DNA of 32,256 nucleotides from Candidatus Gastranaerophilales bacterium (GTDB taxonomy: Bacteria; Cyanobacteriota; Vampirovibrionia; Gastranaerophilales; Gastranaerophilaceae). The notes beneath the pieces are model-generated. The model had not been told where the DNA came from. It ran no database searches and was given only the letters and a program-made list of their open reading frames with translations. The stretch covers positions 1 to 32,256 of the forward strand of contig CALUSW010000017.1 of the NCBI GenBank assembly GCA_944323535.1, given 5' to 3'. Shown here piece by piece: positions 10,139 to 32,144 of this stretch. Position numbers and translations under genes: made by a program. The stretch's first letter is position 1. The number at the start of each line of letters is the position of its first letter.

Positions 10139-10285
10139 TTAATTGTCAAATTTTTCAGGGTGGTTTGAATTTGATAAAACAATTTCGCGGTATTCGTTTT
10201 TATCGATATCAATACCCATATTTTTTATATCAATTTTAAATTTTTTCTTTTTTATATGTTTTAATTTTTCATTATATTGCTGCAA
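10139..10285 (-). CDS. Possible small ORF (48 aa) between carB and aroA
   Basis: A minus-strand frame runs from TTG at 10285-10283 to TAA at 10141-10139. AAAAGGG lies about 8 bases before the TTG, inside the end of carB, so translation could be coupled. The protein is basic at the start and ends with E-Y-R-E-I-V-L-S-N-S. It fills the whole carB-aroA gap, which otherwise holds nothing I can name. The composition is protein-like, but the genome is AT-rich and short open frames occur by chance. I recognise no family. Confidence 0.3.
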   Translation of the reverse strand: MQQYNEKLKHIKKKKFKIDIKNMGIDIDKNEYREIVLSNSNHPEKFDN

Positions 10286-13200
10286 ATTTGTTTCCCTTTT
10301 CTGTATTTATCAATACTTTCATAAGTAAGGTTATTATCTTTCATATAAGCTTTAAGTGCTTCCAGATATGCTTTAGCCGTATCCAGTACAGTAAAGCAGG
10401 GGGTTGAATACATTTCTGCTATTGTTCTTATTAAAAAACCTCTGTCTTCACTGCCGTATCTTACCGAATTATTATTGGTTGTCGGAGTATTTATTATAAA
10501 ACAAAGTTCTTTATTTTTCATATTTCTCTGCATTTTTTTGATATCAAATTTTTCTATTTCTTTTGATTCAATATTGTGCAATTTTAAATATTTATGCGTA
10601 CCCGTTGTTGCAACAAGTCTGTAGCCTAAATCAACAAGAGTCTGTGCAATCTCAACCGAATCTTTTTTATAATGGTCATTAATTGATATTAATACATTGC
10701 CTCTTTCTGTTGATAACTTATAACCTGCCGCCAGAAATCCTTTTATCAAAGCTCTTTCATAAGAGGTATCAATGCCGAGCACCTCGCCCGTTGATTTCAT
10801 CTCAGGCGCCAAAGCCGGATCTATTCTGTTCAGTTTTTGAAAAGAGAATATCGGAATTTTTGCACATACAAGCTCTGTTGTTTCAACAAGTCCGGGTTTA
10901 TAGCCCTGTTCAATTATGGATTTACCGAATATTGCATCTATTGCTATTTTAACCATGGGAACACCCGTAACTTTGCTTAAAATAGGCACAGTTCTCGAGG
11001 CTCTCGGATTAACTTCAATAATATATGCAACATCATCTTTTAATATAAATTGAATATTCATCAATCCTTTAACTTTTAACGCTCTTGCTATTTTTTCAGT
11101 ATAAATTACCAGATTATCAATAATATGCCGGGGAATAGTTCTTGTCGGATAAAGAGCAATTGAATCACCCGAATGTACACCTGCTCTTTCAACGTGTTCG
11201 GTTATTGCAGGGATTAAAACATTTTCTCCGTCGGAAATTGCATCAAGCTCAAGCTCTGTTCCTTCTATATACTGGTCAATCAAAATAGGATGTTCATCCG
11301 AAAATTTTAAAGCTCCGTCAATATAAGAAATGAGTTCGTCTTTATTATAGACAACCTGCATACCGCGTCCGCCTATAACATACGAAGGACGTACCAGCAG
11401 AGGATAACCCAGTGTTTTAGCCACCTCAAGCGCCTCTGATTGTTTTCTTACAGCAAAACCCTTCGGCTGCGGTATGTTCAACTCTCTTAAAAGCTGTTCA
11501 AAAAGTTTTCGGTCTTCTGCCGTATTTATCGATTCAAGAGAAGTTCCTAATATTTTAATGCCTCTTTTATGAAGCTTCGGCGCAAGATTTATTGCCGTCT
11601 GACCTCCGAATTGGACAAGAACGCCTTCCGGATTTTCTTTTTCGATAATATTCATAATATTTTCGATATGCATAGGTTCAAAGAACAATTTATCCGCAAC
11701 GTCAAAATCGGTTGAAAGTGTTTCAGGGTTTGAGTTAACAATTAATGATTTATAATTATTATTTCTTACCTCCCAGGCTGCATGAACGGAACAATAATCA
11801 AATTCTATACCCTGACCTATCCTGATAGGTCCAGAACCCAATATTAAAATTTTTTTATCATTATTATCGGAATCACTTTCATCAATTTCATTGTATGTTG
11901 AATAATAATACGGAGTATATGCCTTAAATTCCGCAGCACAGGTATCAACTATTTTAAAAGATGCGCTTATTGAATTTTCACGCCGCAGTTTTTCTATATC
12001 ACATAAAGAAATTTGGGTATATCTTGCTATTTCTTCATCTAAAAATCCTTTTTCTTTAGCTTCAAGATATAAATCGATTGTTAACTGTTCATTTTTAAGT
12101 TTATTTTCAAAATCTACAAGACTTTTAATTTTATATATAAACCATTTATCAATTTTTGTTATTTTATTTATTTCATCAACACTTATACCTCTGTTAACAG
12201 CTTCAGCCACTCTGAATATTCTTCTGTCATCCTGGACATGAAGAAGTGCTTTCAGTTCATCTTCGCTGCATTCCATATGACGGCCTCTTAAGAGTCCGGT
12301 ATATTTTGATTCTATTGAAGCAACAGCTTTTTTGAAGGAACTTTCAAAAGTTCTTCCTATTGCCATTACTTCGCCCGTAGCTTTCATTTTAGTACCAAGA
12401 ATTCTGTCGCCGTGTTTAAATTTATCAAACGGCCATTTTGGTATTTTGGTAACAACGTAATCTAGAGCAGGTTCAAATGCCGCAACGGTTTTCTTTGTTA
12501 TGGAGTTTGGAATTTCATGCAGATTATAACCTATTGCAATTTTTGTTGTTATTTTTGCAATGGGATATCCTGTTGCTTTTGAAGCCAGTGCGGATGAGCG
12601 GCTGACACGCGGATTTACTTCTATTACATAATACTGGTTGCTGACCGTATCAAGTGCAAACTGAACATTGCAGCCGCCTTCTATTTTTAAAGCTCTTATA
12701 ATCTTAAGCGCCGCACTTCTTAACATCTGGCATTCTTTGTTTGTAAGAGTCTGTGTAGGCGCTACAACAAAGCTGTCGCCGGTGTGTATTCCGATAGGAT
12801 CAATATTTTCCATATTACAAATAGCAATTGCCGTATTATTTGCATCACGTATTACTTCGTACTCTATTTCTTTATAGCCGGCAATACTTTTCTCAACAAG
12901 CACCTGAGATATAGGGCTTAACGACAGCCCTGTATATACTATTTCTTCATATTCGCTGTAGTTATTGGCAATACCTCCTCCGGTACCGCCGAGGGTATAA
13001 GCAGGTCTTACTATAATAGGAAAACCTATCTTCTGTGCAAATTTCTTAGCTTCATCAAAACTTGATACTATATCGCTTTCCGGAATAGGTTCATCTATTT
13101 CAAGCATTAAATTTTTAAATAATTCTCTGTCTTCCGCTTTTTTTATGGATTCTATTTTTGTGCCTAGAAGTTCAATATTATACTTTTCAAGAGTCCCGCT

Positions 13201-13512
13201 CTCATAAAGCTGTACGGCAAGATTAAGCCCTGTTTGACCTCCGAGTGTTGCTATAACTCCATTCGGGCGTTCTTTTTCAATTATATATATTAAAGATTTA
13301 AGTGTTAAAGGTTCGATATAAACTTTATCCGCGATATTTTCATCCGTCATTATGGTTGCCGGATTTGAATTTACAAGAACAACCTCTATATTTTCTTCTT
13401 TAAGTGCTCTGCATGCCTGAACTCCGGCATAATCAAATTCTGCTGCCTGCCCTATCACAATAGGACCGGAGCCTATTACTAAAACTTTCTTTATATCTGT
13501 ATTTATCGGCAT
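10261..13512 (-). CDS. carB: Carbamoyl-phosphate synthase large subunit
   Basis: CarB uses bicarbonate, two ATP and ammonia from CarA to make carbamoyl phosphate for pyrimidines and arginine. The 1083-residue protein (the E. coli enzyme is 1073) has two homologous ATP-grasp halves, each with a G-G-Q-T-G/A-x-N motif (near residues 93 and 640). Each half also carries an E-V-N-P-R-x-S-R motif, a ligand of the metal-nucleotide site. The C-terminal region, from about 935, is an MGS-like allosteric domain with A-T-T-G-T-H-K-Y. In many enzymes this domain binds UMP and ornithine, which would give feedback control. It starts 15 bases after the pyrF::carA stop, so both subunits come from one transcript. 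Confidence 0.97.
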   Translation of the reverse strand: MPINTDIKKVLVIGSGPIVIGQAAEFDYAGVQACRALKEENIEVVLVNSNPATIMTDENIADKVYIEPLTLKSLIYIIEKERPNGVIATLGGQTGLNLAVQLYESGTLEKYNIELLGTKIESIKKAEDRELFKNLMLEIDEPIPESDIVSSFDEAKKFAQKIGFPIIVRPAYTLGGTGGGIANNYSEYEEIVYTGLSLSPISQVLVEKSIAGYKEIEYEVIRDANNTAIAICNMENIDPIGIHTGDSFVVAPTQTLTNKECQMLRSAALKIIRALKIEGGCNVQFALDTVSNQYYVIEVNPRVSRSSALASKATGYPIAKITTKIAIGYNLHEIPNSITKKTVAAFEPALDYVVTKIPKWPFDKFKHGDRILGTKMKATGEVMAIGRTFESSFKKAVASIESKYTGLLRGRHMECSEDELKALLHVQDDRRIFRVAEAVNRGISVDEINKITKIDKWFIYKIKSLVDFENKLKNEQLTIDLYLEAKEKGFLDEEIARYTQISLCDIEKLRRENSISASFKIVDTCAAEFKAYTPYYYSTYNEIDESDSDNNDKKILILGSGPIRIGQGIEFDYCSVHAAWEVRNNNYKSLIVNSNPETLSTDFDVADKLFFEPMHIENIMNIIEKENPEGVLVQFGGQTAINLAPKLHKRGIKILGTSLESINTAEDRKLFEQLLRELNIPQPKGFAVRKQSEALEVAKTLGYPLLVRPSYVIGGRGMQVVYNKDELISYIDGALKFSDEHPILIDQYIEGTELELDAISDGENVLIPAITEHVERAGVHSGDSIALYPTRTIPRHIIDNLVIYTEKIARALKVKGLMNIQFILKDDVAYIIEVNPRASRTVPILSKVTGVPMVKIAIDAIFGKSIIEQGYKPGLVETTELVCAKIPIFSFQKLNRIDPALAPEMKSTGEVLGIDTSYERALIKGFLAAGYKLSTERGNVLISINDHYKKDSVEIAQTLVDLGYRLVATTGTHKYLKLHNIESKEIEKFDIKKMQRNMKNKELCFIINTPTTNNNSVRYGSEDRGFLIRTIAEMYSTPCFTVLDTAKAYLEALKAYMKDNNLTYESIDKYRKGKQICSNIMKN

Positions 13513-13527
13513 AATTTATATCTCTTT

Positions 13528-15363
13528 CTATATAATTGCTGCTTTTTCAAGTTCAGCTTCTTTTATCCAGTTTATAATAATCCTGTTCGCGTCATAAGGT
13601 CCAGCCGTTAATTCAGGATGAAATTGAACAGTCTTTATTTTATACTTATCACATGATATTCCTTCTATTGTGTTGTCATTCAAATTAAAATATGTTGTTT
13701 CAACAAATGAAGGAAGAGAAGATGTTTCAACCGAATAACTGTGATTTTGGGAAGTAATAAATATCTCATTTGTCTTTAAATCAATAACGGGATGATTTCC
13801 CCCTCTGTGCCCGTATTTAAGTTTAAATGTTTTTCCGCCCAGAGCCAATGATAATATTTGATGACCCAGACAAATCCCGAATATTCTTATTCTGCCCAGC
13901 AGATTTTTTGCCGTTTCAATTGCCTGATGTGCATCTTCAGGATTACCCGGTCCGTTTGATATTAATACAGCATCAAAATCATTATTCAGAATTTCATCAG
14001 CCTTAACATCAGCAGGATATACTGTTATATCACAATTGAGTGCTTTAAAATTATCAAGAATGCTTTTTTTAATACCCATATCAATAACGGCAAGTTTAAT
14101 ACCGCTGCCCGAATATTTTTCTACTCTGTATGTTGTTACATCAAGCGTAATATTGGGGCTTATTTTATATTCTTTAACTTTTGCCTTTATTTCAGGAGTA
14201 ATATCACCCGTTGTAACAGCACAATTCATTGCCCCGCAGTTTCTTATTATCTGGGTAAGATATCTTGTATCAATACCTTTTAATCCTATTATATTATTTT
14301 GTTTTAAATAATCCGAAAGCGATATATAGCTTTTGTAATGTGATTCATGCTCACACATATTTTTTACTATAAATCCTTTTGCGTGTATTTTTCCGCTTTC
14401 AAAATCATCTTTATTTATTCCGTAATTTCCTATTTCGGGATAAGTCATAACTATTGTCTGACCTGCATAAGAAGGATCGGTTAAAATTTCCTGATAGCCG
14501 ACCATTGATGTATTAAATACAATTTCACCGTATGATGTACCTTCAGCGCCTATTGATTCACCTTCAAAAATCATTCCGTTTTCAAGAATCAATTTACCTT
14601 TAGATTTTGCATATGACTTATTCTGGGTTAATATGGCATTTTCTATTTCTTCATAAATCATCTCTATTGCTTTAATTTTATCTTCGGCACTTGTAACGGC
14701 TCTTCCTATTACAAGATAGTCCGCACCTTCTTTTATTGCAATACTTGGAGTTGCAAGACGTTTTTGATCGTTTTTATTTGACCATTCAGGACGTATCCCG
14801 GGGCAGAGTACTTTAAAATTTTTACCGCAGACCTGTTTAATTTTCTTTGCTTCCCAAACGCTTGCAACAACACCGTCCAAACCTGCATTTTTTGCGCTTA
14901 TTGCAAGATGTATTGCATAATCATCCGGCTTATACGGGATTTTAAGTTCATTTCTTAAACAATTTTCACTTATACTTGTAAGAACTGTCACTCCTAAAAT
15001 AACCGGATTTTCAAAGCCGAGTTCGGCAGCAGTTTTTCTTGCGGCGGCTTGAGCCGTTCTCATCATTTCTTCTCCGCCAGTCGTATGGATGTTAAAAAAT
15101 GATGCTCCGTTTCTTATTACATTTTCAGCTGCTTTTGCCACCGTGTTAGGTATATCGTGAAGTTTCACATCAAAAAAGAATTTTATATTCTGTTCCTGCA
15201 TAAATTTAAACACTTCAAGCCCGCAGCCTGTATAAAGCTGTAAACCTACCTTAAAAACACCCACATAATCTTTGAGCTCGGTTATAAGTGATTTTGCCTG
15301 TTCAAGTGTATCGACATCAAGTGCAAGTACTATTTTTTCTTTTATTTCGGGTCTTATTTGCAT
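13528..15363 (-). CDS. pyrF-carA: Fused OMP decarboxylase - carbamoyl-phosphate synthase small subunit (PyrF-CarA)
   Basis: One uninterrupted frame of 611 residues carries two enzymes. Residues 1-243 are an orotidine-5'-phosphate decarboxylase, with L-A-L-D-V-D near residue 13, the catalytic F-D-V-K-L-H-D-I-P-N-T-V near 64 and C-P-G-I-R-P near 190. After a short linker at about 244-256, residues 257-605 are CarA, with N-T-S-M-V-G-Y-Q-E near 284. The class I glutamine amidotransferase contains S-N-G-P-G-N-P-E-D, the nucleophile in F-G-I-C-L-G-H-Q and Q-F-H-P-E. CarA feeds ammonia to CarB and PyrF makes UMP, so the first and last steps of the pathway are joined. The ribosome-binding site AGGATAG overlaps the pyrC stop 4 bases upstream. 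I see no separate start for carA with a good ribosome-binding site. Confidence 0.93.
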   Translation of the reverse strand: MQIRPEIKEKIVLALDVDTLEQAKSLITELKDYVGVFKVGLQLYTGCGLEVFKFMQEQNIKFFFDVKLHDIPNTVAKAAENVIRNGASFFNIHTTGGEEMMRTAQAAARKTAAELGFENPVILGVTVLTSISENCLRNELKIPYKPDDYAIHLAISAKNAGLDGVVASVWEAKKIKQVCGKNFKVLCPGIRPEWSNKNDQKRLATPSIAIKEGADYLVIGRAVTSAEDKIKAIEMIYEEIENAILTQNKSYAKSKGKLILENGMIFEGESIGAEGTSYGEIVFNTSMVGYQEILTDPSYAGQTIVMTYPEIGNYGINKDDFESGKIHAKGFIVKNMCEHESHYKSYISLSDYLKQNNIIGLKGIDTRYLTQIIRNCGAMNCAVTTGDITPEIKAKVKEYKISPNITLDVTTYRVEKYSGSGIKLAVIDMGIKKSILDNFKALNCDITVYPADVKADEILNNDFDAVLISNGPGNPEDAHQAIETAKNLLGRIRIFGICLGHQILSLALGGKTFKLKYGHRGGNHPVIDLKTNEIFITSQNHSYSVETSSLPSFVETTYFNLNDNTIEGISCDKYKIKTVQFHPELTAGPYDANRIIINWIKEAELEKAAII

Positions 15364-15367
15364 TTTT

Positions 15368-16642
15368 CTATCCTATATTATATATTTTACCTTTTATTAT
15401 TGTATGTTTTACTTTCCCTTTTAATTTCTTTTTATCAAAAGGAGAAATTCTGCATTTTGATTTAAATTTTGAAGCATCCATAATCCATTCTTCATTAACA
15501 TCAATAACCGTTAAATTAGCTTCTCTGCCGGTTTTAATACTTCCCTGATTTTTAATATTTAAAATGCAGGCAGGATTATACGTAAATTTTCTTATTGTAT
15601 CAATTAATGAAAGTTTTTTTGTATGAACAAGATTAGTCAATGCAAGAGCCATTGCGGTTTCAAATCCTGCAATACCCATAGGTGCATTTTGAATGGGAAG
15701 CTGTTTTTCATGAACAGTATGAGGCGCATGGTCAGTTGCAATAACGTCTATAGTTCCGTCTTGCAGTCCTTGTATAACAGCATTTAAATCTTCTTTTGTT
15801 CTTAAAGGAGGATTTACTTTATACCTTGCATCATAATCAATAATATCATCTTCCGTAAGACTAAAATAATGAGGAGCGGTTTCCGCCGTAACATTTAATC
15901 CTTCTTTTTTGGCTTCTCTTATAAGTTCAACCGAACGTTTTGAAGATATATGGGCAAAGTGGTATCTGCCGTTTATACTTCTTACAATCTCAAGTTCCCT
16001 TGCAACAGCCAAAGACTCGGTAATATCAGGAATACCTTTCAGTCCGAGCCTTGTGCTTTTAATTCCCTCATTAATTACTCCTTCATGAGCTAATGATGAA
16101 TCTTCGCTGTGCGAAATTATAATAGAATTATGGGAATTTATATACTTTAGAGCTTCTCTTAAAAGGTGCATATTTTCAACCGGTTTTCCGTCATCAGAAA
16201 AGGCAATTGCGCCTCCGTCAAGGAGTTCTGATACATTAACAATTTTTTCCCCCGAAAGACCTTTTGTTAAAGCGCAGACAGGATAAAAACCGATTTCGCT
16301 TACTTCTTTTGCCTTGCTTATTATGTAATTCAAAGTCGCTGCATTATCAACAGCGGGATTTGTGTTTGCCATAGGGCATACAGCCGTATATCCTCCGTTA
16401 ATGGCAGATAATATTCCTGTTTTTATTGTTTCCTTTGAATTGTATCCGGGTTCTCTTAAATGGCAATGTATATCAATAAGCCCGGGAGTTATTATTTTTC
16501 CCGTTAAATCAATTACTTCTTCATCAGCAAAAGGATTAATACTGTCTGATATTTCTTTTATTAAACCGTTTTCAATTCTAATATCCGATTTACCTTGGAA
16601 ATTACTTTCGGGATTTATTATTTCGGCATTTTTAAGAAGCAT
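15368..16642 (-). CDS. pyrC: Dihydroorotase
   Basis: PyrC closes carbamoyl aspartate to dihydroorotate. The 424-residue amidohydrolase has the metal-binding D-I-H-C-H-L-R-E-P-G near residue 57, H-S-E-D near 178, H-F-A-H near 229 and the A-T-D-H-A-P-H signature near 303. The length fits the class I, bacterial PyrC/AllB-like group. Its ribosome-binding site AGGAGGT is nearly perfect and lies inside the last codons of pyrB, with which it overlaps by 11 bases; this suggests strong, coupled translation. Confidence 0.95.
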   Translation of the reverse strand: MLLKNAEIINPESNFQGKSDIRIENGLIKEISDSINPFADEEVIDLTGKIITPGLIDIHCHLREPGYNSKETIKTGILSAINGGYTAVCPMANTNPAVDNAATLNYIISKAKEVSEIGFYPVCALTKGLSGEKIVNVSELLDGGAIAFSDDGKPVENMHLLREALKYINSHNSIIISHSEDSSLAHEGVINEGIKSTRLGLKGIPDITESLAVARELEIVRSINGRYHFAHISSKRSVELIREAKKEGLNVTAETAPHYFSLTEDDIIDYDARYKVNPPLRTKEDLNAVIQGLQDGTIDVIATDHAPHTVHEKQLPIQNAPMGIAGFETAMALALTNLVHTKKLSLIDTIRKFTYNPACILNIKNQGSIKTGREANLTVIDVNEEWIMDASKFKSKCRISPFDKKKLKGKVKHTIIKGKIYNIG

Positions 16643-17546
16643 ATTTACCTCCTAATAACATGTTTAAGACTGCCATTCTGACATATACTCCGTTCTGCGC
16701 CTGTTCTAATATTGTTTTTCCTACAATGTTATCTAAAAGCTCTGATGATACTTCAATATTTCTGTTAGCAGGGCCTGGGTGCATTAATATTACATTATCA
16801 TCTGCATATTGTTTTAACAGTGCTGTATCTATTTCATAAAGTCTTTTATACTCTGACGAATCCGGATAACCCTCTTTTTCGTGGCGTTCATTCTGGACTC
16901 TTAAAACCATAACAACATTTGCGCCTTCTACTGCCTCTTTTACATCTTTATGATAGTTAACTTTAAATTCTTCCAAATTCTCGAATTGAAGATAACTCGG
17001 GGCACAAAGATGAATATCCGCACCGAATTTTGATAAAAGAGCTATGTTTGATTTTGCAACGCGGCTGTGAGACACATCACCTATTATTGTTATTTTTTTA
17101 TTTTCGATGCTTCCCATTTTTTCAAGCATAGTATAAAAATCAAGCAGAGCCTGAGAGGGATGTGCGTGTGTGCCGTCTCCGCCGTTTACAAATTTTATAG
17201 GATATTTTACAAGCCGCATTACGTTATTTATTATACCTGACAGAGAATGCCTTATAACAACGGCATTTACTCCGAGAAAATATAGGTTTTCAATTGTATC
17301 TTTCAAGCTTTCGCCTTTTGAAAGCGATGAATGAGCCGCATCAAAATTTATTACATTCATAAATAGTTTTTTAGCGGCTATTTCAAAACTGCATCTCGTT
17401 CTTGTTGAATTCTCATAGAACATAAGAGCAAGAGTCCTGCCTGTAACATCGCTTGTTTTAGCACCTTCTTTAAATTTTTTTGCAAGATTTATAATATTTA
17501 AAATATCTTCTTTTGAAATATTTTCAATATCGATTAAATGTTCCAT
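16632..17546 (-). CDS. pyrB: Aspartate carbamoyltransferase catalytic subunit
   Basis: PyrB joins carbamoyl phosphate and aspartate. I set the start at ATG 17546, giving 304 residues and the N-terminus M-E-H-L-I-D-I. A longer reading from 17606 lies inside pyrE and adds 20 residues typical of an out-of-frame overlap. The start overlaps the pyrE stop as TAATG. The carbamoyl-phosphate motif F-Y-E-N-S-T-R-T-R near residue 46 is clear, as are H-P-S-Q-A-L-L-D near 127 and H-P-G-P-A-N-R near 260. No regulatory pyrI is present in the operon, so the enzyme is probably an unregulated trimer; the control could sit on CarB or on transcription. Confidence 0.95.
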   Translation of the reverse strand: MEHLIDIENISKEDILNIINLAKKFKEGAKTSDVTGRTLALMFYENSTRTRCSFEIAAKKLFMNVINFDAAHSSLSKGESLKDTIENLYFLGVNAVVIRHSLSGIINNVMRLVKYPIKFVNGGDGTHAHPSQALLDFYTMLEKMGSIENKKITIIGDVSHSRVAKSNIALLSKFGADIHLCAPSYLQFENLEEFKVNYHKDVKEAVEGANVVMVLRVQNERHEKEGYPDSSEYKRLYEIDTALLKQYADDNVILMHPGPANRNIEVSSELLDNIVGKTILEQAQNGVYVRMAVLNMLLGGKYAS

Positions 17547-18121
17547 TATACTTTTGCCTTTTCTTCCCTGCTTCCGGGTTTTACAAGCGGTATTCCTTCT
17601 TTGCACAAAGGGCAGTTATCCGGCTCATATACAACAGGGTCTATTTTAAGCAGAGATTTAATATTATACCCTGTTTTACCCTGTGTTCTGTCAACTATGC
17701 AGCCAACAGCGACAACTTCGGGTTCAAATTCTTTAATTGCCTCCATAGTTTCTTTTATCGTTCTTGCTGTTGTAATAACATCTTCTATTATTACGACTTT
17801 TTCACCTTTTTTAAGCGAATACCCGCGTCTTAATTGCATAATTCCGTCTTTTCTTTCAACAAACAGATTACGTTTTTTTGCATTTTTAGCGGTTTCATAC
17901 CCGATTATTACAGCCCCTATTGCAGGTGCAACAATTGTATCAAATTCAATATCCTGCAATTGTTCTGCCAGTTTTTTACCGAGTTTCTCTGTTATTTCCG
18001 GATACTGGTATAATTTCGCACATTGAAAATATATATTTGAATGCAGTCCCGAAGTAAGACAGAAATGCCCATGCAAAACTCCCTGCGCCTGTTCGAGTAA
18101 ATTTAAAACTTCATTTGTCAT
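17546..18121 (-). CDS. pyrE: Orotate phosphoribosyltransferase
   Basis: PyrE converts orotate and PRPP to OMP, the substrate of the PyrF half of the fused protein. The 191-residue protein has the PRPP-binding motif V-V-I-I-E-D-V-I-T-T-A-R-T near residue 107 and L-T-S-G-L-H-S-N near residue 22. A C-terminal tail with C-P-L-C-K-E-G (near 173) is present, as in several PyrE proteins of about this length. AGGG lies 10 bases before the ATG. It follows pyrD after 4 bases and shares one base with the pyrB start. Confidence 0.94.
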   Translation of the reverse strand: MTNEVLNLLEQAQGVLHGHFCLTSGLHSNIYFQCAKLYQYPEITEKLGKKLAEQLQDIEFDTIVAPAIGAVIIGYETAKNAKKRNLFVERKDGIMQLRRGYSLKKGEKVVIIEDVITTARTIKETMEAIKEFEPEVVAVGCIVDRTQGKTGYNIKSLLKIDPVVYEPDNCPLCKEGIPLVKPGSREEKAKV

Positions 18122-18125
18122 TTTA

Positions 18126-19052
18126 TTATGCCCTCAATTCTTTTTTTAATTCGGTTAAATCATTAAATCCGTTTTTAACTATGTATTCTTCAAGTTCAAA
18201 TACAAGATTTTGCGAGATATCGGGATGGGTAAAATTAGCTGTTCCTATTTGAACGGCTTCAGCGCCGGCCGCAAAAAATTCAAGTATATCTTCAAGTATT
18301 TCTATTCCGCCTATTCCTACTATTGGAATATTTAAGACTTTTGACAATCTGCTTACTGCATTTATTGCAACAGGTTTTATTCCGGCACCTGAGTATCCTC
18401 CCTGCACAATCGTTTTATAAAATTTACCGTTCACAATATTTAATTTTATTGATGTTCCCTTAAGCGTATTTATTGCACTTACGGCATCAGCGCCGGCTTT
18501 TTCGGCGGCAATGCCTATACTTTCTATAGATGTAACATTTGGAGTTAGTTTTACCATTAAAAAACCTTTATATTCATTTCTTACCGCCGAAACAAGCTCA
18601 TATAAAGATTTATCATCGGTTCCGAATTCAAGGCAGCCTGTTTTTACATTCGGACATGATACGTTAAGTTCTATTGCCTTAATGTTATTGCTGCTGCATA
18701 TCTTAGCTAGATTTGTATACTCTTCAACGGTTGAACCCGCAATATTAACTATAAATTCTATGTTATTTGCATTTAAAACCGGAACTTTATCCGATAAAAA
18801 TTTTTCAATTCCGACATTTTCAAGCCCTATGGAATTTATCATGCCTGCTTTTGTTTCGACTATCCTGATATGTTTATTTCCTTCGCGCGGCAATAAAGAA
18901 ATTGCTTTTGTAACTATTGCGCCAAGATTTTCAACATCTATAAAATCATTATATTCATTGGCATAACCAAAAGTTCCTGATGCCGTCATTACAGGATTTT
19001 TCAGTATAAATCCGTTTAAATCGGTTTTTAGAATGCCGTTTATTACTGCCAT
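18126..19052 (-). CDS. pyrD: Dihydroorotate dehydrogenase, class 1B catalytic subunit
   Basis: PyrD oxidises dihydroorotate to orotate with FMN. The 308-residue protein has the class 1 catalytic cysteine loop L-N-V-S-C-P-N-V-K near residue 130, V-K-L-T-P-N-V near 165 and the FMN-phosphate site G-I-G-G-I near 243. The adjacent pyrK, overlapping by 10 bases, makes it a class 1B enzyme that passes electrons to NAD+ through PyrK and does not need quinone. The ribosome-binding site GAGG lies inside the pyrK end, so production of the two subunits is probably coupled. Confidence 0.96.
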   Translation of the reverse strand: MAVINGILKTDLNGFILKNPVMTASGTFGYANEYNDFIDVENLGAIVTKAISLLPREGNKHIRIVETKAGMINSIGLENVGIEKFLSDKVPVLNANNIEFIVNIAGSTVEEYTNLAKICSSNNIKAIELNVSCPNVKTGCLEFGTDDKSLYELVSAVRNEYKGFLMVKLTPNVTSIESIGIAAEKAGADAVSAINTLKGTSIKLNIVNGKFYKTIVQGGYSGAGIKPVAINAVSRLSKVLNIPIVGIGGIEILEDILEFFAAGAEAVQIGTANFTHPDISQNLVFELEEYIVKNGFNDLTELKKELRA

Positions 19053-19804
19053 ACAACCTCGCTTCCCGAAAATACGGGACCGTCTTTACAAACAGCGGCA
19101 TTTACTATATTTCCGTCTTTTCTTACACTTATAACACAGCCTCTGCAAACACCTATAGAACATGCCATAACCTTTTCAACGGCAATTTGTGTTTCAATAT
19201 TATATTTTTCTCCGATTCGGGATAATGTTTTTAAAACAATCTCAGGACCGCAGACATATATAATTTCCGGCTTATAATCTTTTATTATATTTTCAATATC
19301 TGTTATAACGCTTCCTTTTCTTCCGTATGAACCGTCGTCAGTATATGCAATATCAGCTTTTATACACGAAGGTATTTCATTTTTATTTAAGAATCCCGCA
19401 ATAAATAAATTCTCAATATTCTTTTCATTAAGTTTTGATTTTAAAAATGAAATCGGAGCCGCGCCTATACCTGCGCCTATTAAAAGTGATTTTTTATTTT
19501 CAATATTGAACCCGTTTCCGAACACTCCTGTTATATCTATTAAGTCGTCTTTTTTTAAAGATTTAATATATTTTGTACCTTTTCCTCTTTCTTTAAACAG
19601 AATACCGATTTTTCCGCTATTATGTGAAAATACGCTGAAAGGACGTCTGAATGTGAGATTTTCGCAGTATATTGATATAAATTGTCCTGCTTTTATTTCC
19701 TGAGATATTTCACCTTCAATTTCTATCAAATATGAATTTGCCGATACTTTTTCGATTCGCGCAACTTTTGCTTTATGAATCTTTTTGGATTTTTCTTTAA
19801 TCAT
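19043..19804 (-). CDS. pyrK: Dihydroorotate dehydrogenase electron-transfer subunit PyrK
   Basis: PyrK carries FAD and a [2Fe-2S] cluster and links PyrD to NAD+. The 253-residue protein has the FAD-binding R-R-P-F-S-V near residue 55 and the NAD-binding L-L-I-G-A-G-I-G-A-A-P near 107. The C-terminal iron-sulphur motif starts C-S-I-G-V-C-R-G-C near 213 and is completed by a Cys near 237 in A-A-V-C-K-D-G-P-V-F. It is the first structural gene of the pyrimidine operon. GGAAGAG precedes the ATG at 19804. The leader upstream holds a short ORF and a terminator-like hairpin that would control the whole operon. Confidence 0.95.
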   Translation of the reverse strand: MIKEKSKKIHKAKVARIEKVSANSYLIEIEGEISQEIKAGQFISIYCENLTFRRPFSVFSHNSGKIGILFKERGKGTKYIKSLKKDDLIDITGVFGNGFNIENKKSLLIGAGIGAAPISFLKSKLNEKNIENLFIAGFLNKNEIPSCIKADIAYTDDGSYGRKGSVITDIENIIKDYKPEIIYVCGPEIVLKTLSRIGEKYNIETQIAVEKVMACSIGVCRGCVISVRKDGNIVNAAVCKDGPVFSGSEVVWQ

Positions 19805-19832
19805 TACTCTTCCATACCAATAAGTTTTTATT

Positions 19833-19868
19833 AAAAAAAAGAGAAAAACAAAGATGTTTTTCTCTTTT
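19833..19868 (-). terminator. Terminator-like hairpin in the pyr leader (attenuator candidate)
   Basis: On the minus strand AAAAGAGAAAAAC (19868-19856) and GTTTTTCTCTTTT (19849-19837) form a perfect 13-bp stem. Eight T follow the last C (19840-19833), four of them inside the stem. The hairpin lies 28 bases before pyrK and downstream of the promoter, so it can only act as a leader attenuator. It has just three G-C pairs, hence it is weak. Confidence 0.55.
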
Positions 19869-19905
19869 AAAAAATATATTCACTTTTTATCAAATAATCA
19901 CTCAT
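19867..19905 (-). CDS. Possible 12-residue pyr leader peptide
   Basis: ATG at 19905-19903 opens M-S-D-Y-L-I-K-S-E-Y-I-F and stops with TAA at 19869-19867, exactly at the base of the attenuator hairpin. AAGG (19917-19914) lies 8 bases before the ATG. A six-T run (19874-19869) covers the last codons. A ribosome that stays close to the polymerase would cover the left arm of the hairpin and stop it from forming, as in the E. coli pyrBI leader. Real translation is not shown; a short ORF can arise by chance. Confidence 0.45.
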   Translation of the reverse strand: MSDYLIKSEYIF

Positions 19906-19927
19906 GACTTTAACCTTATTTCTAAGT

Positions 19928-19956
19928 ATTATCCGACCAACCAAAACCAAAGTCAA
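19928..19956 (-). promoter_or_regulatory. Sigma70-type promoter of the pyr operon
   Basis: On the minus strand TTGACT (19956-19951) and GATAAT (19933-19928) are separated by 17 bases; each box has five of six consensus bases. The spacer contains repeated TTGGTT units. Transcription would start near 19921, about 16 bases before the leader ATG and about 117 bases before pyrK. Confidence 0.65.
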
Positions 19957-20070
19957 TGAAAAAGGAAACATTATTTACAATATTTGAAAAAATAATCCGG
20001 TGCCGCAGCCTGCCGCCGACTGTCTTAAATTTATTTAGAGGGAAATTAACCTGTTACTTGTAAAATATCT

Positions 20071-20099: not shown

Positions 20100-20123
20100 T
20101 AGTTTTTGAGGATATGTTTAATT

Positions 20124-22040
20124 ATGACCTATTGCGATGAACAAAAAAAATCACCGTTTGCAAGCAAAGAAGCAAAAGATATTATTAAAGAAGCATTAAA
20201 AGTTTTAGGTAAAAAACATCTGGCTTTTATTGCACATGCAAACAGTTTTCCTGCAGAAAGCGGCAAAAATACGGGGTTTGGAACAATTAATTCCAATGCC
20301 GCAAAAAAATTAATAGATTTTCTATCCGGAGTATTTACCGATATTCAGCTTGGACCTGCCGGAAAAACAAAATCCATTGATGCTTCACCCTATACAGGTA
20401 CTATTTTCTCAAATAATCCTTTGTTCATTGACTTAGAGCAGCTTACAACAAATGAGTGGTATAATATCCTTTCAACAGAAACATACAACAGAATAACAGA
20501 AAACAATCCCAATAAAAATATAAATAAAACAGCTTATTCATATATTTTTAAAGAACAGGAAAATGCATTAAAAGAAGCATACGAAAACTTCAAAAAAACT
20601 GATTGCAGCGAACTTAAAGAAAAATTTGAAAATTACAAAAGAGAAAACAATTTCTGGCTTGAAAAAGATTCTTTATATGAAGCATTGACCGTTGAACACA
20701 ATAACGATTACTGGCCGATGTGGAAGTCAGAAACGGATAAATCACTGTTTAATCCTCAAAATGAAGAAGAAAAAGCACAATATACACAAAGAATTAACGA
20801 AATTAAAGAAAAATATGCGGATGTTACAGATTTTTATTCTTTCTGCCAGTTTGTAATATCAATGCAGAATGAAAAATCAAGAGAATACGCGCAGTCTAAA
20901 GGAATAAAGATGATAGCGGACAGACAGGTTGCATTTTCTGACCGCGATAACTGGGCATATCAGTCATATTTCTTAAAAGGCTGGTGCTTGGGATGTCCGC
21001 CTGATTATTTTTCGGAAGATGGTCAGATGTGGGGTTTCCCCGTTATGGATCCTGAAAAATTGTTCAATCCCGACGGTTCTTTAGGTGAAGGCGGAATATT
21101 AATGAAAGAACTTTACAAAAAAATGTTCCGTGAAAACCCGGGAGGAGTAAGAATTGACCATATGGTCGGATTGATTGACCCTTGGGTTTATGTATCAGGA
21201 CGTAAACCAAAAATAGAAGAAGGTGCCGGAAGATTATATTCTTCTCCGGAACATCCGGTTTTATCAAGATATGCAATTGCAACTATGGAAGATTTAAATC
21301 CTGAAGTTGAAGCTGATAAAGAAGAGCGCATATTAAAATTAACGGAAGAACAAATAAGAAAATACGGCGCTCTTGTTGAAAAAATTGTTATAGGGGCAGC
21401 CGAAGAAACAGGTCTGGATAAAGACTCCATTGTCTGCGAAGATTTGGGAACTTTAACTTATCCGGTTGTAAGCGTTATGAAAGAATACAATCTTCAGGGA
21501 ATGAAATTAATCCAGTTTGTAGTACCCGAAAAACCGGAACATCCTTACAGATGTAAAAACATAACCCCGAGAAGCTGGGCAATGGTCGGAACTCACGATA
21601 ATGAGCCTATAGCTATGTGGGCAGACGCTACTGTTAATACTGAAGCCGGTTATTTAAACGGTAAAAATCTGGCGGAAGATTTATGGCCCGATGCTTCTAA
21701 TGAACAAAGAGAAGAAATTGCCGTTAAAATTTCCAAAGATGCTCATTTCTTAACACAGACAAAACTTGTTGAACTTTTTGCCTGTAAAGCAGAAAATATT
21801 CAAATATTCTTTACGGATTTCTTAGGACTTTATGATGTATATAACCGTCCGGGAACTTCGGGTGATAAAAACTGGTCATTAAGAATTCCTGATAATTATG
21901 AAGAAGTATATTCCAATAACTTAAATGAAGGAAAAGCTTTAAATCTTCCTTTAATTCTAAAACTCGCAATTGAAGCAAGAGGACATAAATTTATTTCGGA
22001 TAACTGGGAAATAATACAAAAACTTGAAAGTATAATGTAG
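20124..22040 (+). CDS. malQ: 4-alpha-glucanotransferase (GH77, amylomaltase type)
   Basis: This enzyme moves alpha-1,4-glucan chains between acceptors in glycogen or maltodextrin metabolism. GH77 signatures are present: G-G-V-R-I-D-H-M near residue 344 (the catalytic nucleophile Asp), V-C-E-D-L-G-T-L near 440 (the acid/base Glu) and V-G-T-H-D-N-E near 490 (the third Asp). A frame from TTG 20106 is also open. I prefer ATG 20124, because GAGGA (20108-20112) lies 11 bases upstream and the promoter places the RNA start near 20106. This gives 638 residues. The first 90 residues are less conserved. It leads a four-gene operon with 3-7 base gaps. Confidence 0.88.
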   Translation: MTYCDEQKKSPFASKEAKDIIKEALKVLGKKHLAFIAHANSFPAESGKNTGFGTINSNAAKKLIDFLSGVFTDIQLGPAGKTKSIDASPYTGTIFSNNPLFIDLEQLTTNEWYNILSTETYNRITENNPNKNINKTAYSYIFKEQENALKEAYENFKKTDCSELKEKFENYKRENNFWLEKDSLYEALTVEHNNDYWPMWKSETDKSLFNPQNEEEKAQYTQRINEIKEKYADVTDFYSFCQFVISMQNEKSREYAQSKGIKMIADRQVAFSDRDNWAYQSYFLKGWCLGCPPDYFSEDGQMWGFPVMDPEKLFNPDGSLGEGGILMKELYKKMFRENPGGVRIDHMVGLIDPWVYVSGRKPKIEEGAGRLYSSPEHPVLSRYAIATMEDLNPEVEADKEERILKLTEEQIRKYGALVEKIVIGAAEETGLDKDSIVCEDLGTLTYPVVSVMKEYNLQGMKLIQFVVPEKPEHPYRCKNITPRSWAMVGTHDNEPIAMWADATVNTEAGYLNGKNLAEDLWPDASNEQREEIAVKISKDAHFLTQTKLVELFACKAENIQIFFTDFLGLYDVYNRPGTSGDKNWSLRIPDNYEEVYSNNLNEGKALNLPLILKLAIEARGHKFISDNWEIIQKLESIM

Positions 22041-31573: not shown

Positions 31574-31840
31574 ATGAATAATGAACAAAAATTATATATT
31601 GCAGAGTTAACTCCTGAAGCAGAAGAACAACTTTTAGAGTTAGAGCCAAAGTATAGGATGCGAATAGCAGAAGCTATAAAAACATTTGAATACATAGGTG
31701 TGCAGTATAAAAATATAAATAATCTTGGTAAGGGATTATTTGAAATAAAACCAAGTGAAGTGCGTGCATATTTTATGTATGACCCTAATAGAAAAAGAAT
31801 AATTATAGTTGGGTTTATTACATTAAAAAAGACACAATAA
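31574..31840 (+). CDS. RelE/HigB-like toxin of a type II toxin-antitoxin system
   Basis: The 88-residue protein fits the RelE/ParE/HigB fold: an N-terminal E-L-T-P-E-A-E-E-Q-L helix, a second helix, L-G-K-G-L-F-E-I-K, V-R-A-Y-F-M-Y and the terminal strand I-I-I-V-G-F-I-T-L-K-K-T-Q. Such proteins cleave mRNA on the ribosome or inhibit gyrase. The usual tail after K-K-T-Q is missing. Just before the stop, TTA AAA AAG makes a slippery heptamer (31825-31831), and a -1 shift would add 21 residues ending at 31896. Toxin-before-antitoxin order is as in higBA. The active residues cannot be assigned by eye. Confidence 0.65.
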   Translation: MNNEQKLYIAELTPEAEEQLLELEPKYRMRIAEAIKTFEYIGVQYKNINNLGKGLFEIKPSEVRAYFMYDPNRKRIIIVGFITLKKTQ

Positions 31841-31880
31841 GAAACATAGAAAAATATATTAATAATGTGGAGTTAGAACC

Positions 31881-32144
31881 ATGCAAAAAAAACTAAGAAC
31901 AATAGATGAAATATTATACGACAATACATTTTTTACAGAAGAACAAGCAAAACAAGTTGAAGATAATGCTCAAAAAGAAGCTGTAAAAATTTTGCATGGC
32001 GGAAAACGTGATGGCGCAGGCAGAAAAGCTAAAGGTAATAGTCCTTTAAACATAACAATAAAAGTATCAGCAGATGAACAGGACTTTTTAAAGTATGCGC
32101 GTGCGAACGGTTTAAACTTAAAACAATTAATGCAAGGCTGCTAA
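31881..32144 (+). CDS. Putative antitoxin / small DNA-binding protein
   Basis: The 87-residue protein follows the toxin after 40 bases, with GGAG before the ATG. The centre carries H-G-G-K-R-D-G-A-G-R-K, a basic motif common in small proteins of mobile elements. After it comes N-I-T-I-K-V-S-A-D-E-Q-D-F-L, which resembles the ribbon strand and first helix of ribbon-helix-helix (CopG-like) regulators. As antitoxins often repress their own operon, this fits a type II pair. No direct motif proves that it binds the toxin; an unrelated small mobile-element protein remains possible. Confidence 0.5.
   Translation: MQKKLRTIDEILYDNTFFTEEQAKQVEDNAQKEAVKILHGGKRDGAGRKAKGNSPLNITIKVSADEQDFLKYARANGLNLKQLMQGC

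Follow-up and report, generated by a model that had tools for sequence, protein, structure and literature searches.

The pyr operon and its surroundings

The window considered here, the whole 32,256-nucleotide stretch analyzed from a Candidatus Gastranaerophilales bacterium, carries on its minus strand a pyr operon in which pyrK, pyrD, pyrE, pyrB, pyrC, a pyrF-carA fusion and carB follow one another between positions 19804 and 10261, adjacent genes overlapping or standing only a very short distance apart. The operon is complete for de novo UMP synthesis, as the initial annotation had stated, and every function was matched by family models. The first gene, pyrK (19043-19804), specifies the electron transfer subunit of dihydroorotate dehydrogenase; its matches to the NCBIfam PRK00054 family lie below curated cut-offs, and its gene context is clear. 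It is followed by pyrD (18126-19052), which is class 1B-like with PyrK (NF005574, 349 bits, cut-off 269), and by pyrE (17546-18121; TIGR01367, 200.5 bits, cut-off 150). The pyrB open reading frame (ORF; 16632-17606) starts with GTG, and its match to NF002032 (351 bits, cut-off 263) runs from residue 22; the true start may be an internal ATG near 17543. Downstream lie pyrC (15368-16642; TIGR00857, 418 bits, cut-off 279), the pyrF-carA fusion (13528-15363), which matches PRK00230 over residues 7-242 and TIGR01368 over residues 257-602, and carB (10261-13512; TIGR01369, 1482 bits, cut-off 1027). The fusion encodes a single protein of 611 amino acids and is intact in the genus (76-85% identity), being split in G011, while in G044, G045 and G048 pyrF and carA stand as two side-by-side genes. 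Elsewhere, these genomes encode a further PyrF-like protein, separate from the fusion and sharing about 45% identity.

On the other side of the pyrK upstream region lies a divergent gene (20106-22040, plus strand) that resembles 4-alpha-glucanotransferase, although its score, 165.7 of 477 bits, falls far short of the curated cut-offs. At the far end of the window, two small adjoining ORFs (31574-32144, plus strand), the first weakly similar to Pfam Gp49 (23.4 bits, cut-off 23.9), have a possible toxin-antitoxin layout.

Leader anatomy and its conservation

The 150 bases before pyrK hold a promoter, a Shine-Dalgarno-like sequence, a 12-codon ORF and a hairpin with a T-tract, all on the minus strand. 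The promoter is of sigma-70 type (19928-19956), with TTGACT at 19956-19951, a 17-nt spacer and GATAAT at 19933-19928; it agrees with the consensus at 10 of 12 positions, and its position and spacing are the same in genus relatives, so that the promoter proposed in the initial annotation recurs in the leaders of the genus. An AAGG (19914-19917) stands 8 nt before the ATG of the leader ORF, which reads MSDYLIKSEYIF and extends from the ATG at 19905 to a TAA ending at 19867; the ORF and its ribosome-binding site had likewise been described correctly, and AAGG or AGGG occupies the same position in most relatives. The terminator hairpin (19837-19868) is built from a U-free 5' arm, AAAAGAGAAAAACA, a TCTT loop and a U-rich 3' arm, TGTTTTTCTCTTTT. 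Its perfect stem comprises 14 bp rather than the 13 first given, with the three G-C pairs already noted, and its computed stability is -14.7 kcal/mol (z -6.0), while the leader ORF region folded alone is no more stable than shuffles. The stop codon does sit at the hairpin base, which it overlaps by 2 nt. Behind the stem follows a T-tract (19833-19836; eight T if the end of the 3' arm is counted), noted previously and conserved in the alignment. An ordinary gene-end terminator is ruled out, since the neighboring gene is transcribed divergently and there is no gene upstream of the hairpin that could end at it.

Matches to promoter and terminator consensus sequences mean nothing by themselves in so AT-rich a region, since their numbers equal those in shuffles (nine promoters against 9.4 expected, one terminator against 1.0), and conservation was tested instead. 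Upstream regions of pyrK were drawn from same-genus genomes and wider relatives, yielding 73 leaders: 31 from the genus, the window included, where enough upstream contig was available, and 42 from other genera, for which 40 upstream regions were added from 13 further genera of the family. Promoter, ATG, short ORF, stop position, hairpin and T-tract recur in order in the 31 genus leaders. A strict rule (an ATG, an SD-like sequence, at least 8 codons, and a stop ending between -12 and +25 nt from the hairpin start) is satisfied by 60 of the 73 leaders, whereas dinucleotide shuffling of the 80 nt that precede the hairpin leads one to expect 3.6. As the genomes compared are related and not independent, this count is not a probability; more weight attaches to the occurrence of the layout across 14 genera of the family. 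On inspection the other 13 leaders have looser forms of the layout. Some have a GTG start or no SD-like sequence (L028, L031, L127, L128, L143, L155, L157), an ORF running through the terminator (L008, L147, L121) or a marginal 8-codon ORF (L123), and for others the wrong hairpin had been chosen (L118, L152). In families f2, f3 and f4 of the order no such leader precedes pyrK, where upstream sequence is available.

The stop codon usually overlaps the hairpin base by 0-2 nt. In L004, L010 and L031 it lies within the loop, and in L008 and L147 it comes only after the terminator. Shifted stops would still bring a ribosome onto the hairpin; the common factor is where the ribosome would end. The median distance from stop to hairpin is 0 nt in the leaders against 14 nt at gene ends of the genus (p 4e-6, one median per genus group), although closeness alone is weak evidence because 31% of gene-end terminators in the genus also lie within 5 nt of a stop codon and 46% within 10. 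Corresponding figures for E. coli are 22% and 41%, and the two distributions are too alike for this distance to serve as a test of coupling versus runaway transcription. In g34 leaders (for example L130, L137, L139 and L144), AGTATG directly follows the leader stop at the hairpin base, possibly as a second start reading into the terminator.

The stem itself covaries, compensatory changes having altered both partners in 5 of the 11 consensus pairs, and the 23-sequence consensus contains the terminator helix only, with neither a second conserved helix nor a rival antiterminator. Alignment upholds the leader ORF and the hairpin of the initial annotation and fails to uphold its U-run. The window does have six T over the final leader codons, as described; as a sensor this run was rejected, since a T-run of at least five within the 40 nt before the hairpin occurs in only 3 of 31 genus leaders (the window and two others) and 12 of 71 overall. 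All 71 have a T-run of this length in the 3' arm plus 6 nt. The segment before the hairpin has a median U content of 0.33, the 5' arm one of 0, and the 3' arm with its 6 nt one of 0.73; the hairpin's own 3' arm and tail form the U-rich stretch that is conserved. Any terminator would be expected to have a T tail, and what sets the leaders apart is how their arms are composed: a U-free 5' arm paired with a 3' arm of at least 70% U characterizes 27 of 33 leaders, compared with 3 of 140 background terminators, the latter being terminator-like hairpins from 400 kb of genus DNA (20-kb stretches, genus g1 only). A purine-only 5' arm is likewise the majority form in 11 of 14 genus groups, as against 8 of 80 strong background terminators (p 3e-7). 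A purine/pyrimidine stem could, of course, be selected for some other reason.

A covariance model of the leader gave a best match with E < 1e-3 in 37 of 41 genus genomes, this match lying upstream of pyrK wherever compared and separated by a clear gap from nearly all further matches, and each genome has a single strong copy. The matches at E 1e-4 to 1e-6 outside the genus that were inspected (G071, G218, G244) do not precede pyrK and look like ordinary terminators, so values in this range are no evidence of further copies. A search by geometry alone through about 830 kb of genus DNA found 13 premature-type terminators, two of which have a leader ORF ending at the hairpin: the pyr leader and a minus-strand leader in L064. 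The latter is a candidate second attenuator, in which 7 nt separate the end of a 19-codon ORF from a strong hairpin; another 36 nt lie between this hairpin and the next gene, which, to judge by eye from its first residues, resembles phosphoenolpyruvate carboxykinase.

Further elements lie around the leader in the window or its relatives. A TGTAAA element (19974-19979, minus strand), about 17 nt upstream of the -35 box, keeps a nearly fixed distance in almost all genus leaders (L003-L033) and is possibly an activator or UP-type site. TGTAAA-N-TTGAC is not enriched genome-wide (24 matches against 22 control matches), and TGTAAA was accordingly rejected as a genome-wide promoter element. In f3 relatives lacking the leader (L038, L039, L040, L042 and L045), a AGTAATTTACT-like palindrome overlaps the promoter region before pyrK, possibly an operator replacing attenuation. 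Several genomes (L004, L005, L006, L017, L025, L026 and others) carry between terminator and pyrK up to three tandem copies of a GC-rich repeat of about 113 bp, with AAATTTTGC / GCAAAATTT at its ends. Members of this repeat family are scattered through the genus, with 28 matches in G007 and none found in G000.

A proposed mechanism and its rivals

We propose that the leader is a transcription attenuator worked by the relative timing of ribosome and polymerase, in the manner of pyrBI and pyrE, with low UTP favoring readthrough, and we put the probability of this reading at about 0.72. The transcript would start near 19921, and a ribosome would load on the leader ORF some 15-20 nt downstream and translate about 12 codons. 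When UTP is plentiful, a fast polymerase would complete the hairpin ahead of the ribosome, and termination would follow about 90 nt into the transcript. When UTP is scarce, polymerase would lose speed in stretches that demand much U, the U-rich 3' arm in particular, while a ribosome at the stop codon would cover most of the 5' arm of the still incomplete hairpin; with the hairpin blocked, polymerase would continue into pyrKDEBC(FcarA)carB.

Studies in E. coli make these steps plausible. Terminators lying in the first 100 bp of a coding sequence are functional there, while one that follows a gene by a few bp is subject to nearly complete repression (PMC4824070), and in pyrBI the delay is supplied by low UTP (PMC10135430). 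The early position of the hairpin in the transcript hence suggests termination by default, and a stop codon at the hairpin suggests that a timely ribosome blocks it. The conserved geometry, which places a terminating ribosome on the 5' arm, agrees with the leader-ORF attenuator put forward in the initial annotation, whose interpretation as a pyrL/pyrBI-like UTP attenuator is partly supported. Since the hairpin cannot form before its 3' arm is made, the delay would come most naturally from that U-rich arm. A narrower proposal, which we hold only tentatively and at rather less than even odds, is that the terminator is itself the UTP sensor, its U-free 5' arm being quickly transcribed and its nearly pure U/C 3' arm stalling polymerase at low UTP, with the sequence of the leader irrelevant.

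The variable read by such a device might instead be the ribosome, with initiation or the general rate of translation, rather than UTP, matching pyrimidine synthesis to translation. The geometry fits this alternative equally well (60 of 73 leaders against 3.6), and the lack of a conserved upstream U-run speaks for it too. A general signal is nevertheless hard to square with a geometry that, across 830 kb, is almost confined to the pyr operon and with one strong covariance-model match per genome, and the enrichment of U-rich 3' arms over background also tells against it; we therefore consider it unlikely. Control by a DNA- or RNA-binding regulator, with the hairpin a fixed or minor attenuator, could draw on the TGTAAA element, conserved upstream of the -35 box and not genome-wide, and on the promoter palindromes of the leaderless f3 relatives. 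Yet PyrR control can be dismissed, no protein exceeding the family cut-off in any of 58 genomes (best 39.7 bits against 138) and the leader yielding no Rfam match at gathering score and no PyrR element at E up to 10, much as the initial annotation had suspected in seeing neither gene nor binding loop. The leader ORF and its stop position would also be left unexplained, and we judge a regulator of this kind quite improbable.

What of the peptide itself? If scarcity of a pyrimidine ligand made the nascent chain arrest its ribosome at the stop codon, the terminator could be blocked, a tnaC-like arrangement of opposite sign. In the genus the peptide is loosely conserved (MKHYLIKIEYI-like), with K-I-E-Y frequent near its C-terminus, and two g32 leaders share a KFVYF end. 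Peptides are unrelated between most genera, however, and divergence by codon position within the genus is flat (0.39/0.40/0.37), with no excess change at third positions, which leads us to reject selection at the level of the peptide; the L004 ORF, moreover, looks frame-shifted by 1 nt against that of L005 and keeps the layout. Together with stops that shift into or through the hairpin, the lack of peptide conservation between genera argues against codon-specific or arrest-peptide sensing and for occlusion by the ribosome, and an arrest peptide seems to us a slim prospect. Amino-acid attenuation of the his/trp type would share the short leader ORF before a terminator, but it must contend with leader ORFs in which a run of codons for one amino acid is absent, with the lack of a conserved antiterminator helix and with a target in pyrimidine synthesis, and we give it almost no credence.

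Comparison with known attenuators

A survey from 2016 found no reliable data on attenuation in cyanobacteria (PMC4833913), and our literature search returned no paper describing an attenuator for pyr genes in Gastranaerophilales. The closest parallel is E. coli pyrBI with its pyrL leader, where promoter, leader ORF and intrinsic terminator likewise precede a pyrimidine gene; here too the ORF would bring a ribosome onto the terminator, and by analogy readthrough would be expected at low UTP. There are also clear differences. Whereas pyrL has 44 codons and runs through its hairpin, the leaders described here have 9-17 codons as a rule and stop at the hairpin base (except in L008 and L147); the U-rich stretch is the 3' arm, and not a segment before a G-C-rich hairpin; and all de novo UMP genes, not pyrBI alone, would come under control. 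In E. coli rph(orfE)-pyrE the position of the ribosome decides readthrough, and there, as here, an ORF stops shortly before a terminator, but that ORF is a full gene and the stem G-C-rich, in contrast to the dedicated 12-codon leader of the window. The PyrR attenuators of Bacillus and others also have a terminator within the leader that precedes a complete pyr operon; they differ in possessing PyrR, a binding-loop RNA and an antiterminator, for none of which was a counterpart found in our searches.

By the usual marks of the pyrBI/pyrE class, the leader has a predicted translatable ORF with an SD sequence, a predicted intrinsic terminator and an ORF that reaches it. A U-rich pausing tract before the hairpin is not a general feature, the U-rich tract lying inside the 3' arm, and the response to UTP is predicted by analogy, so the leader is not filed as a proven member of the class. 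The regulatory codon run and exclusive antiterminator helix that define his/trp leaders are both lacking, as are conserved arrest residues of the tnaC type, for which the partial KIEY of one genus is the nearest approach. The leader is thus probably a variant whose mode of action resembles that of the pyrBI/pyrE class and differs from those of PyrR, his/trp and tnaC systems. If so, logic of the pyrBI kind operates at a great distance from Proteobacteria and through a more compact sensor, offering a candidate means of controlling UMP synthesis without PyrR in Gastranaerophilales gut bacteria and predicting that ribosomes in this lineage are able to catch up with RNA polymerase. Should the terminator prove also to be the sensor, a single hairpin would unite stop signal and sensing tract, gated by a leader of a dozen codons, and leader-ORF attenuation would extend beyond its documented groups into a lineage related to cyanobacteria.
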